Shown here piece by piece: positions 20,410 to 23,910 of a DNA stretch of 64,000 nucleotides (its first letter is position 1; each line of letters begins with the position of its first letter). The notes beneath the pieces are model-generated. The model made no database searches and was not told the DNA's origin. It saw only the letters and a program-made list of their open reading frames with translations. The stretch comes from Pseudomonas lutea (lineage in GTDB: Bacteria; Pseudomonadota; Gammaproteobacteria; Pseudomonadales; Pseudomonadaceae). The stretch lies in the NCBI RefSeq assembly GCF_000759445.1, contig NZ_JRMB01000002.1, positions 186,001-250,000 of the forward strand, read 5' to 3'. The position numbers and the translations under genes were made by a program.

Positions 20410-20883
20410 TCAGCGCGCGCCCATCGCGTCCCTCAGGAAACCCGGCGCGATGTAACGCTCGTAATGCGCTTCGGACAGCAGGAAGAATTCCCGATCAATG
20501 GCATCGCGCAGTTCGGGCAGTGACCAGTCGCGAAACTCCGGCAGCAGCACCATGCCGTATGCGTCCAATTGGTTGATCACCCGAGCGCCCCGCGCAATCA
20601 ACTGATAAGCCCAGCAATATTCCGACTGGTGCGGGACGAAGCGGATCTTGCGTTGTTCCAGCTGCTGGCGCAGCTTCACGGGGTCGAAGACCTCGACCTT
20701 CGCCGCCATGACCTGCACCAGCAGCTGTTCAAGGCGCAGCCAGACCGCGCGTTTTTCGTCTTCGTTGTAACCGTTCCAGTGGATGACTTCGTGATGGAAA
20801 CGCTTGCATCCCCGGCACACAAGGTCCCCGTAAACGGTGGAGCAGAGGCCCACGCAGGGCGTTTTGATGATCTGATTGGGCAT
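20410..20883 (-). CDS. DUF1289 domain protein
   Basis: This is a 157-residue cytoplasmic protein. The first 50 residues hold the small cysteine-rich DUF1289 domain: TPCVGLCSTVYGDLVCRGC followed by KRFHHEVIHW, with four conserved cysteines that could bind metal. The remaining 100 residues are a charged alpha-helical extension not found in the short members. The frame is open to 20913, but the ATG at 20883 (MPNQIIKTP) fits the domain start. Function is unknown. It is divergent from the acnB leader. Confidence 0.8.
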   Translation of the reverse strand: MPNQIIKTPCVGLCSTVYGDLVCRGCKRFHHEVIHWNGYNEDEKRAVWLRLEQLLVQVMAAKVEVFDPVKLRQQLEQRKIRFVPHQSEYCWAYQLIARGARVINQLDAYGMVLLPEFRDWSLPELRDAIDREFFLLSEAHYERYIAPGFLRDAMGAR

Positions 20884-20970
20884 GGCAAAACAACACGACG
20901 GCGAACGGAACAAGCCGGCATGTTAGCCCTTTGTCTAACGAGGTACACCCTTCAACCTGTGGGGGCTAAC

Positions 20971-20999
20971 TTACCTTCAGCGGTTTTTTCCCGTAGAAT
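20971..20999 (+). promoter_or_regulatory. Weak candidate promoter upstream of acnB
   Basis: TAGAAT (20994-20999) is a good -10 box. The 17-bp-spaced -35 position holds TTACCT, a poor match. It would start transcription near 21006, just ahead of the structured element. An 8-bp inverted repeat (GTTAGCCC at 20922-20929, GGGCTAAC at 20963-20970) lies upstream and could be an operator. Confidence 0.4.
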
Positions 21000-21031
21000 C
21001 ACCGGGCCTTTTAAGGCGCCAATGTCCGTTG

Positions 21032-21191
21032 GAAGCTGTTTTCAAAGCGTCACGAGCACAGTCAGGGCTTTGTCCGGTAAGTCGCCCAGCTACTTATTGC
21101 CCAAAGCCCGCCCCGCAGTCCGGTTTGACGCGAAAGGTTCGCGTCCCCTCCCCAGCCGATCATGCAGGCGTAAAACTTTGAAAACAGCTTC
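21032..21191 (+). ncRNA. Candidate structured RNA or MITE-like element in the acnB leader
   Basis: GAAGCTGTTTTCAAAG (21032-21047) is perfectly complementary to CTTTGAAAACAGCTTC (21176-21191), giving a 16-bp closing helix. Inside lie two more perfect 8-bp helices: GGGCTTTG (21065-21072) with CAAAGCCC (21102-21109), and GACGCGAA (21127-21134) with TTCGCGTC (21138-21145) around an AGG loop. Nothing in the region codes for a recognisable protein. Near-matching CYGTTGG heptamers flank the outer helix, so a small inverted-repeat mobile element is the alternative reading. It ends 118 nt before the acnB start and would be part of the acnB leader. Confidence 0.55.
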
Positions 21192-21309
21192 TGTTGGAGA
21201 TCGTCAGCTTCCTGCCAAGAAACTTTAAAAAGTTCGAGAGCATCGATGCGGACCTTTTCCGGATGAGCGTCCCGGACACCCATTTGGGACCACTGATGAG
21301 GGTAATACT

Positions 21310-23910
21310 GTGCTTGAAGCCTACCGTAAACACATCGAAGAGCGTGCCGCCCAGGGTATCGTGCCCCAGCCGCTTAACGCCGAACAAACCGCAGGCCTGG
21401 TCGAGCTGCTGAAAAACCCACCGGCTGGCGAAGAAGCTTTCCTGCTTGACCTGATCACCAATCGCGTTCCACCGGGAGTTGACGAAGCGGCCTACGTCAA
21501 AGCCGGTTTCCTTTCTGCCCTGGCCAAGGGCGAAGTTCATTCCCCTCTGCTGGACAAGAAGCGCGCTGTCGAACTGCTCGGCACCATGCAGGGCGGCTAC
21601 AACATCGTCACCATGGTTGAGCTGCTGGACGATGCCGAGCTGGCACCGGTGGCCGCAGAACAACTGAAGCACACCCTGCTGATGTTCGACGCCTTCCACG
21701 ACGTCGCTGAAAAAGCCAAGAACGGCAACGCACACGCCAAAGGCGTGATGCAGTCCTGGGCCGACGGCGAGTGGTTCCAGAAGCGTCCGACCCTGGCCGA
21801 AAAGATCAGCCTGCGCGTCTTCAAGGTCACCGGTGAAACCAACACCGACGACCTGTCGCCTGCGCCTGATGCCTGGTCGCGTCCGGACATCCCGCTGCAC
21901 GCCCTCGCCATGCTGAAAATGGCCCGTGACGGCATCGTGCCCGACGTGCAAGGCTCGATCGGCCCGATGAAGCAAATCGAAGACATGCGCGGTCAAGGCT
22001 TCCCTATTGCCTACGTCGGTGACGTGGTCGGTACCGGTTCCTCGCGTAAGTCAGCCACCAACTCGGTGCTGTGGTTCTTCGGTGACGACATCCCGAACGT
22101 GCCGAACAAGCGCGCCGGCGGCTTCTGCTTCGGCAGCAAAATCGCTCCGATCTTCTACAACACCATGGAAGATGCGGGCGCACTGCCAATTGAGTTCGAC
22201 GTCTCGAACATCAACATGGGCGACGTGATCGACGTTTACCCGTATGCCGGCAAAGTCACCAAACACGGCACCGACGACGTGCTGGCAACCTTCGAACTGA
22301 AGACGCCAGTGCTGCTTGACGAAGTTCGCGCCGGTGGCCGTATTCCGCTGATCATCGGTCGCGGCCTGACTGGCAAGGCACGCGCCGAGCTGGGTCTGCC
22401 GCCTTCGACGCTGTTCAAGCTGCCCGACGTTCCAGTGGCCAGCACCAAAGGCTTTACCCTGGCGCAGAAGATGGTCGGCAAGGCCTGTGGCACCGACGGC
22501 ATCCGTCCGGGCACCTACTGCGAGCCGAAGATGACCACCGTCGGTTCTCAGGACACCACCGGTCCCATGACCCGTGATGAACTGAAAGACCTGGCGTGCC
22601 TGGGCTTCTCGACCGATCTGGTGATGCAGTCTTTCTGCCACACTGCGGCCTATCCGAAGCCGATCGACGTCAAGACTCACCACACGCTGCCTGACTTCAT
22701 CATGACCCGCGGCGGCGTTTCCCTGCGTCCGGGCGACGGCATCATCCACAGCTGGCTGAACCGCATGCTGCTGCCGGACACCGTCGGCACCGGTGGTGAC
22801 TCGCACACCCGCTTCCCGATCGGCATCTCGTTCCCGGCCGGTTCAGGTCTGGTCGCGTTTGCCGCTGCCACCGGCGTTATGCCGCTGGACATGCCGGAGT
22901 CGATTCTGGTTCGCTTCAAAGGCAAGCTGCAACCAGGCGTCACCCTGCGTGACCTGGTTCATGCGATCCCTTACTACGCGATCCAGAAGGGCCTGCTGAC
23001 GGTCGAGAAGAAGGGCAAGAAGAACGCTTTCTCCGGTCGCATTCTGGAGATCGAAGGTCTGGAAACCCTGACCGTCGAGCAAGCTTTCGAACTGTCCGAC
23101 GCCTCGGCCGAACGCTCCGCCGCCGGCTGCACCATCAAGCTGTCGAAAGAGTCGATCGCCGAGTACCTGAAATCCAACATCACCCTGCTGCGCTGGATGA
23201 TCGGCGAAGGCTACGGTGATCCGCGTACGCTGGAGCGTCGTGCTCAGGCCATGGAAGCCTGGGTCGCCAACCCAGAGTTGCTGGAAGCCGATGCTGACGC
23301 CGAATACGCGGAAATCATCGAAATCGATCTGGCTGACGTCAAAGAGCCTGTGCTCTGCGCGCCAAACGACCCGGATGATGCCCGTCTGCTGTCCAGCGTA
23401 GCTGGCGAGAAGATCGACGAGGTGTTCATCGGTTCGTGCATGACCAACATCGGCCACTTCCGCGCTGCGGGCAAGTTGCTGGAGCAGGTCAAAGGCCAGC
23501 TGCCGACGCGTCTGTGGCTGTCGCCGCCGACCAAGATGGACGCTCACCAGTTGACCGAGGAAGGTTACTACGGGATTTACGGCAAGGCTGGCGCGCGCAT
23601 GGAAATGCCGGGCTGCTCGCTGTGCATGGGTAACCAGGCACGTGTTGAGCCGAATTCGACAGTCGTTTCGACGTCGACTCGTAACTTCCCGAACCGTCTG
23701 GGCGATGGTGCGAACGTTTACCTGGCTTCGGCCGAGTTGGCGTCCGTTGCGTCGATTCTGGGTCGTCTGCCGACGGTCGAGGAGTATATGGAGTACGCGG
23801 GCAAGATCGACAGCATGGCTGCCGATGTTTACCGTTACTTGAGCTTCGATCAGATCGCGGAATTCCGTGAGGCTGCGGCCAACGCTAATATTCCGGTTGT
23901 TCAGGCGTAA
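21310..23910 (+). CDS. acnB: Aconitate hydratase B
   Basis: This 866-residue enzyme converts citrate to isocitrate in the tricarboxylic acid cycle and can act as an iron-responsive RNA-binding protein without its cluster. The domain order is that of AcnB: HEAT-like helical domain first, then the swivel domain ([20 protein letters not shown]), then the catalytic domains. The three cysteines that hold the 4Fe-4S cluster are at 710 (GSCMTNIG), 769 and 772 (GCSLCMGN), the same positions I recall for E. coli AcnB. Translation starts at GTG 21310 with a GAGGGT site before it. A structured leader lies upstream and a strong terminator downstream. Confidence 0.97.

Follow-up and report, generated by a model that had tools for sequence, protein, structure and literature searches.

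A conserved structured RNA in the acnB leader of Pseudomonas lutea and its family, with features of a candidate two-state translational switch

The window analyzed here is a stretch of 64,000 nucleotides from Pseudomonas lutea (NCBI RefSeq assembly GCF_000759445.1, contig NZ_JRMB01000002.1, positions 186,001 to 250,000 of the forward strand), and all coordinates count from its first letter. It carries an open reading frame that was called acnB in a preliminary description of the DNA, and which we likewise take to be acnB. Aconitase B is an iron-dependent enzyme of the TCA cycle. Upstream of this gene lies a structured element with the following parts and surroundings, where g1 denotes the genus of the window's species (its own genus), g2 and higher numbers denote other genera, and L numbers denote individual leaders or loci.

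20970..20999, + strand: putative promoter, CTTACC (20970-20975) and TAGAAT (20994-20999), within a block CTTAcC...GTAGAAT that is conserved in the leader alignment.
21005..21017, + strand: small hairpin GGCC-UUUUAA-GGC, with the 5' end presumed nearby; the GCC-N-GGC form recurs in the alignment rows inspected.
21032-21047/21176-21191: P1, the 16-bp helix.
21032..21047, + strand: 5' arm of P1, GAAGCUGUUUUCAAAG, the same in 110 of 110 own-genus leaders.
21048..21061, + strand: J1, CGUCACGAGCACAG, an invariant joining segment, identical in 109 of 110 own-genus leaders.
21053..21062, + strand: J1 segment CGAGCACAGU, complementary to the start-codon region 21307-21316.
21064..21109, + strand: lineage-specific insert (L002, with another form in L003), as read by eye.
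21065-21072/21102-21109: second 8-bp helix, GGGCUUUG/CAAAGCCC, inside the lineage-specific insert.
21114-21123 with 21156-21165, + strand: P2, imperfect in the window; 8 of 11 pairs change on both sides in alignment A1.
21127..21145, + strand: P3 hairpin, GACGCGAA-AGG-UUCGCGUC, whose arms (21127-21134/21138-21145) form the third 8-bp helix; 7 of 10 pairs change on both sides in A1.
21146..21155, + strand: anti-Shine-Dalgarno (anti-SD) segment, degenerate in the window (CCCUCCCCAG; common form CCCUCAUCAG).
21167..21175, + strand: J2, GGCGUAAAA, an invariant joining segment, identical in 108 of 110 own-genus leaders.
21176..21191, + strand: 3' arm of P1, CUUUGAAAACAGCUUC, whose sole variation is A or G opposite U (69 G and 41 A among 110 leaders).
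21269..21290, + strand: RBS hairpin, GUCCC (21269-21273) with GGGAC (21286-21290).
21293..21301, + strand: CUGAUGAGG, a PrrF-complementary site that overlaps the Shine-Dalgarno (SD) sequence GAGGG (21298-21302).
21310..23910, + strand: acnB, an 866-aa open reading frame with a GTG start, whose N-terminus was used to orient all leaders.

Several features of the flanks can be noted briefly. A generic sigma-70 scan returned no site at the putative promoter (20970..20999). A conserved upstream reading frame beginning with the ATG at 21022 and running through P1 was considered and rejected, since several alignment rows carry no ATG, and the varying length of the spacer between this ATG and P1 in other genera also disfavors it. 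When the RBS-hairpin segment was folded simply, GTCCC-type or CCC/GGG stems appeared in at least 91 of 169 leaders, GTTGCGG/CCGCGAC and GTTCCGT/ACGGAAC stems in two leaders each, and unrelated short stems in many others. Just 5' of the SD, the stems of this hairpin differ in some genera yet are complementary. Own-genus leaders have roughly 70 nt between P1 and the RBS hairpin, which include a hairpin of the GGCUCAAAAAGCC type (AACTTTAAAAAGTT in the window, 21192-21268) and possibly a second long-range helix. P1 directly adjoins the RBS hairpin in L109, as it does in the g15 leaders inspected.

The preliminary description had listed three perfect, correctly nested helices of 16, 8 and 8 bp within 21032-21191, and all three were found in place. 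Its further claim, that such a fold is not expected by chance, is borne out by folding energies. The MFE of 21032-21191 is -66.7 kcal/mol, compared to -40.3 kcal/mol (sd 4.1) among 200 dinucleotide shuffles (z = -6.48), none of which folded as well, and a chance fold was rejected. For the longer leader (21005-21350), z is -2.89 and 1 of 100 shuffles was as good. The 3' end of the element lies 118 nt upstream of the acnB GTG at 21310. The architecture that was originally proposed holds only in part, because P1 and P3 are conserved whereas the middle 8-bp helix belongs to an insert present in the closest relatives alone. Furthermore, a conserved helix that is imperfect in the window, P2, was missing from the original list.

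The GGGCUUUG/CAAAGCCC insert takes different forms among the closest relatives (L003 and L005) and is reduced in L004; a dispersed-repeat copy occupies its place in L005. By eye, the window insert (21064-21109) resembles an internally deleted relic of an L005-type repeat, the likeness being to the flanks of the nested L005 copy. A different insert, about 50 nt long, occupies this J1/P2 junction in two other species (L024 and L043), which suggests that the junction tolerates insertions.

A search of the host genome, as had been proposed earlier, found the acnB leader in a single place, at acnB. The 16-nt P1 arm with up to 2 mismatches has 6 genomic sites besides the two P1 arms themselves, and the reversed control also has 6, so the arm was rejected as a widespread site. 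Within the own genus, a query covering 20950-21400 matches 147 of 149 genomes, a result that does not by itself prove the presence of the element because the query includes the acnB start; in the two genomes with no match, acnB was found only as fragments. Leaders were taken from 110 of the 147 matching genomes, and P1 is present in all 110. Another 55 leaders from other genera, selected for the presence of acnB and P1, were added to give 165 leaders with P1, which do not test for conserved position because they were cut by reference to acnB.

A covariance model (R1) was built with copies of up to 145 nt, and hence without the window's own copy, which it recovers at an E-value of 2.7e-14. Of 248 family genomes, 203 contain the element according to R1, as do 17 of 19 genera; where the listed rows show two matches in a genome, these are both strands of one palindrome. 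Among the 244 genomes of an order sample, 11 gave an R1 hit and 10 of these belong to the own family. Only 3 of 229 genomes in a class sample did so, of which 2 are in the own family and the remaining one is weak. An acnB start lies just downstream at 45 of the 48 loci fetched with R1, and the other three loci are the weak hits L151, L152 and L153. Some copies are missed by R1, as is evident from L162, which comes from a genome with no R1 match and carries the element with a large insert. In three g5 leaders (L163, L164 and L166) and one g3 leader (L168), acnB is present and P1 is absent. These relatives have a different leader that keeps the RBS hairpin and the PrrF site. The P1 arms are unchanged in both AT-rich leaders of g13.

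Between J1 and J2, the sequence is variable and two helices, P2 and P3, persist. Covariation was scored on alignment A1, which comprises 61 of the 110 own-genus leaders, chosen for diversity, with elements of up to 145 nt; five longer elements, including that of the window, are omitted. Paired cells amount to 92.3% (shuffled mean 87.8), and 105 cells are changed on both sides compared to 33.2 in shuffles. Changes on both sides occur in 15 of 37 pairs, all of them in P2 and P3. When partners were moved by 1-3 columns, 35-49% of cells were paired (46-49% for a shift of one column), although this slide control favors the scored structure because a MAFFT alignment of 94 elements supplied that structure, which thus derives from the same sequences. 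RNAalifold run on A1 gave a poor structure. The check for covariation suggested in the preliminary description therefore came out positive for P2 and P3, whereas P1 is uninformative: it barely varies (invariant in A1 except for one wobble) and so cannot show covariation. The first 15 nt of its 5' arm are identical in 164 of 165 family leaders.

With one genomic copy, 45 of 48 loci located just upstream of acnB, and covariation in two helices, the earlier proposal of a cis-acting RNA has held up. There is good support for the element being a conserved, covarying cis RNA of acnB, a conclusion that we regard as highly probable. There was no Rfam match (Rfam 15), either at the gathering score in the window or at E-values up to 5 in 20900-21320. 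Also, an acnB leader RNA appears in no title or abstract start among the literature matches listed. Judging by these Rfam and literature listings, the structured acnB leader element looks previously undescribed.

Clues to the function of the element come from complementarity between two single strands of its domain and the translation start of acnB. The J1 segment CGAGCACAGU is complementary to ACUGUGCUUG around the GTG start; all 110 own-genus leaders have a run of 10 or more here, and most of the 55 leaders from other genera have one of 7 or more. Among 20000 shuffles, 2 attained the run of 12 that the J1 consensus shows. Leader L181 keeps this pairing through CGAGCAUAAU:AUUGUGCUUG, in which a G-C pair has become A-U by changes on both sides, and three g10 leaders keep it through CGAGCACAGUA:UACUGUGCUUG (U-A to A-U). 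The pairing is lost (runs of 5-6) in g7, g13, g18, g19 and 3 of 5 g6 leaders, all of which retain P1. Thus, P1 must have a further role.

The second complementarity involves the bulge CCCUCAUC(AG), which matches the SD region GAUGAGGG. The anti-SD sequence CCCTCATC occurs in 96 of 110 own-genus leaders, and in 101 of 110 the anti-SD scores at or above 95% of shuffles of the leader's own domain. The same 5% shuffle level is reached in all leaders of g2 (2/2), g4 (2/2), g8 (1/1), g12 (5/5) and g14 (1/1), and in some of g10 (3/4), g13 (1/2) and g16 (1/2). It is reached rarely in g15 (2/11), g9 (1/7), g6 (1/5) and g7 (1/3), and never in g11 (0/2), g17 (0/4), g18 (0/3) or g19 (0/1). The window itself has the degenerate form CCCUCCCCAG, whose predicted duplex with the RBS (-10.7 kcal/mol) compares with -18.5 kcal/mol for the common form; it does not outperform shuffles (p = 0.165), and a different segment gives the best run.

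In g13, represented by two genomes, the RBS reads AAAGAGGG and the domain loop reads CCUCUUUU or CCCUCUUU. Each loop scores higher with its own RBS than with that of g1 (L156, 21 vs 13; L157, 22 vs 16), with shuffle p values of 0.12 (L156) and 0.04 (L157). Among the other deviating leaders, no clear co-change of loop and RBS was seen: replacing their own RBS by that of g1 slightly weakens the pairing of L200, L196 and L161 and improves that of L199, L183, L184 and L186.

The same region is addressed by the small RNA PrrF. The site CUGAUGAGG is a perfect 9-nt complement of PrrF in the own genome, which has two PrrF copies. The sequence TGATGAGG is present in 161 of 165 leaders, and all 23 family genomes tested gave a PrrF match, which exceeded the cut-off in 20 of them. 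Scanning the whole leader with PrrF by RNAduplex yielded nothing beyond long unspecific duplexes, and the exact 9-nt complement was used instead. For P. aeruginosa, acnB is described as being repressed in a prrF-dependent manner (PMC2851614). The common cis anti-SD and the PrrF seed are identical, which we attribute to their addressing the same site. The notion that the anti-SD exists because of PrrF was dropped, given that the g13 loop follows the changed RBS while PrrF in g13 still reads CTCATCAG. From these sequence comparisons, PrrF and cis control look separable, because in g13 the cis loop alone follows the RBS and because g5 and g3 keep the PrrF site without P1. A family-wide cis leader that masks the acnB start would constitute a second control at the site used by PrrF.

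When eleven leaders were folded without constraints, eight adopted the P1 fold and three (L097, L192 and L176) adopted an alternative fold, in which J1 lies on the start codon, the anti-SD lies on the SD, and P1 and P2 are open. For all 165 leaders, the prediction with P1 forced was compared to that with the 5' arm of P1 held open, and 990 shuffles of the interior of the element served as controls. The two folds are within 5 kcal/mol of each other in 122 of 165 leaders compared to 17% of shuffles, and the P1 fold is favored in 123 of 165. In the alternative fold, the start is paired with J1 or its neighborhood in 156 of 165 leaders (18% of shuffles), the SD is paired with the domain in 133 (37% of shuffles), and both start and SD are masked in 131 (11% of shuffles). 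Alternative pairing of the RBS of the type found in riboswitches is thus predicted for 131 of 165 leaders, and the window shows only the start-codon half. There, the P1 fold (-106.5 kcal/mol) is favored by 5.2 kcal/mol over the alternative (-101.3 kcal/mol), in which the start is masked by J1 and the SD is unpaired with the domain. Energy errors for RNAs of about 300 nt can exceed the differences used here. Also, a pseudoknot may keep P1 intact while J1 and the bulge touch the RBS.

We propose with moderate confidence that the element is a bistable translational switch in which two folds, as predicted by these models, would control the translation of acnB. In the ON state, closure of P1, P2 and P3 would keep J1 and the anti-SD within the domain, and the translation start would be left to the ribosome or to PrrF. 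In the OFF state, base pairing would join J1 to the start codon and the anti-SD to the SD, with P1 and P2 open and P3 still in place; translation would then be off. ON would be the default because P1 is transcribed before the RBS, but the term is only relative because the predicted P1 folds do not clearly free the SD. A regulator acting on P1, J1 or J2 would set the balance between the two folds, and candidate triggers include apo-AcnB, a TCA-cycle metabolite or iron status. In the window's species, start pairing is kept and SD pairing is weakened, and therefore control of acnB there is probably weaker or leans on J1. The element can be viewed as a candidate for a riboswitch or for autogenous control, and the proposed mechanism gives direct predictions for reporter experiments.

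Among the alternatives, a protein-bound leader that lacks any two-state switching must be weighed first. P1 and the CGUC/AAAA internal loop would bind a protein, for which apo-AcnB is the natural candidate, and occupancy would protect or block the mRNA. Such a role could account for the retention of P1 in g7, g13, g18 and g19, where J1:start pairing is lost, and for the 15-nt arm that is identical in 164 of 165 leaders, which is more than base pairing needs. The confinement of the element to acnB, apart from three weak hits, fits as well, and E. coli apo-AcnB is described as binding its own mRNA, though at the 3' UTR (PMC4150767). However, this explanation does not account for why J1 and the bulge are complementary to the translation start, and we consider it unlikely.

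An element that affects mRNA stability or gives rise to an sRNA is an improbable explanation. The long helix would be a substrate for RNase III, a 5' stabilizer or the source of a stable RNA, and a 16-bp helix with a 5' hairpin is typical of such elements, yet neither the sequence invariance nor the complementarity to the start region would be explained, and no terminator-like site followed the element in a simple scan of 20850-21400. Slightly less probable still is a function at the DNA level, in which a transcription factor would bind the arms as a pair of inverted operators, the RNA fold being incidental. The sequence-invariant arms, located just downstream of a promoter-like block, are what such operators would look like, but the covariation of P2 and P3 argues for RNA. 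Likewise, the arms of 162 of 165 leaders differ only by A or G opposite U, which keeps the RNA pairs; one g18 leader has G opposite U, again with the pair kept, and two g7 leaders change the 3' arm in other ways. Moreover, no third site with 0-1 mismatches to the P1 arm exists in the own genome.

The preliminary description had allowed a second reading of the locus as a MITE-like insertion bounded by near-repeated heptamers. These heptamers are indeed present (CCGTTGG at 21026-21032 and CTGTTGG at 21191-21197), but they represent no conserved target-site duplication, since GTTGG flanks the element on both sides in no more than 12 of 110 own-genus leaders. A present-day mobile element was rejected because the copy is single and its position is fixed. 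What survives of the MITE-like reading is the possibility of a mobile origin, given that P1 and J1 resemble the ends of a mobile repeat.

The weak R1 hits L151 and L152 (1501-1640 in each) are copies of a repeat family (L151, L152 and L251-L326) with the core CGAGCGAAGGTnAGnCAAGGC ... GGAGTTTAC ... GTAAATGAGCA ... AACGCAGCATCACCGAGCGCAG, and their arms are followed by CGTC[A/G]CGAGC. The copies inspected share this common core and have many different terminal arms, apparently complementary to each other. Four repeat loci were scanned against Rfam with no match. Allowing up to 2 mismatches, 52 of 119 genus genomes contain the core, with as many as 36 copies in one genome, and the exact core occurs in named records, including Halomonas and Marinobacterium. 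When P1 plus CGUCA was compared to the upstream ends of two repeat copies, the score was 14, which none of 500 random 21-mers from the window reached; the mean score over 76 repeat copies was reached by 3 of 500 window 21-mers. This test is not independent, because the pattern was chosen from L151 and L152, and the two best copies (L289 and L298) are almost identical to these in sequence. Two of 369 class genomes, both in the own family, contain a pattern that joins GAAGCTGTTT to CGTCACGAGC.

On the basis of this resemblance, the element may be a domesticated MITE, and we regard a mobile origin as plausible at somewhat under an even chance. A fuller history is offered only tentatively and is rather doubtful: a mobile repeat would have inserted once before acnB in the ancestor of the family and become a bistable switch, with its terminal repeat turned into P1, its subterminal CGUCACGAGC into the anti-start strand, and a position-drifting loop tuned to the SD, yielding a PrrF-independent control that copies the PrrF seed in cis. 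If the mobile origin is true, the conversion of a repeat into an RNA switch could be traced here. That the element is instead a MITE relic with no regulatory role, as its score against the repeat ends and the nature of L151 and L152 might hint, is very improbable in view of its one copy, its same place in the sampled genera, its near-invariant arms and its compensated inner helices, as a dead relic would decay.

Members of the repeat family carry inverted arms at their ends, which in some copies precede CGTC[A/G]CGAGC, a layout that the acnB element resembles, but they reach up to 36 copies per genome with variable arms and a different interior, whereas the acnB element is fixed and single. 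Among known RNAs, the closest in setting are the icd, icd-II and sucA-II leader motifs (described in Genome Biol 2010 and RNA Biol 2021), which likewise are conserved structured RNAs in the leader of a TCA-cycle gene. In icd-II, the RBS is described as taking part in P1 of that motif (PMC8632094), and icd and sucA-II are listed for Pseudomonas and Pseudomonadales in a table of PMC2864571, where icd carries no accession. These motifs belong to different genes, and the window has no Rfam match (sucA-II is RF01758). In E. coli, the iron sRNA RyhB is described as acting at the RBS of acnB (PMC4150767), so the gene name and an iron sRNA at the RBS (RyhB there, PrrF in P. aeruginosa) are shared. However, AcnB binding in E. 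coli is in the 3' UTR, whereas the element presented here is in the 5' leader, and within the class sample R1 places it in its own family only, plus one weak hit.

Translational riboswitches with alternative SD pairing have two mutually exclusive folds, one of which masks the SD and the start codon. The acnB element is predicted to share this two-fold principle. Unlike in these riboswitches, its invariance includes a 16-bp helix and not loops only, and it stands before one gene in one family.
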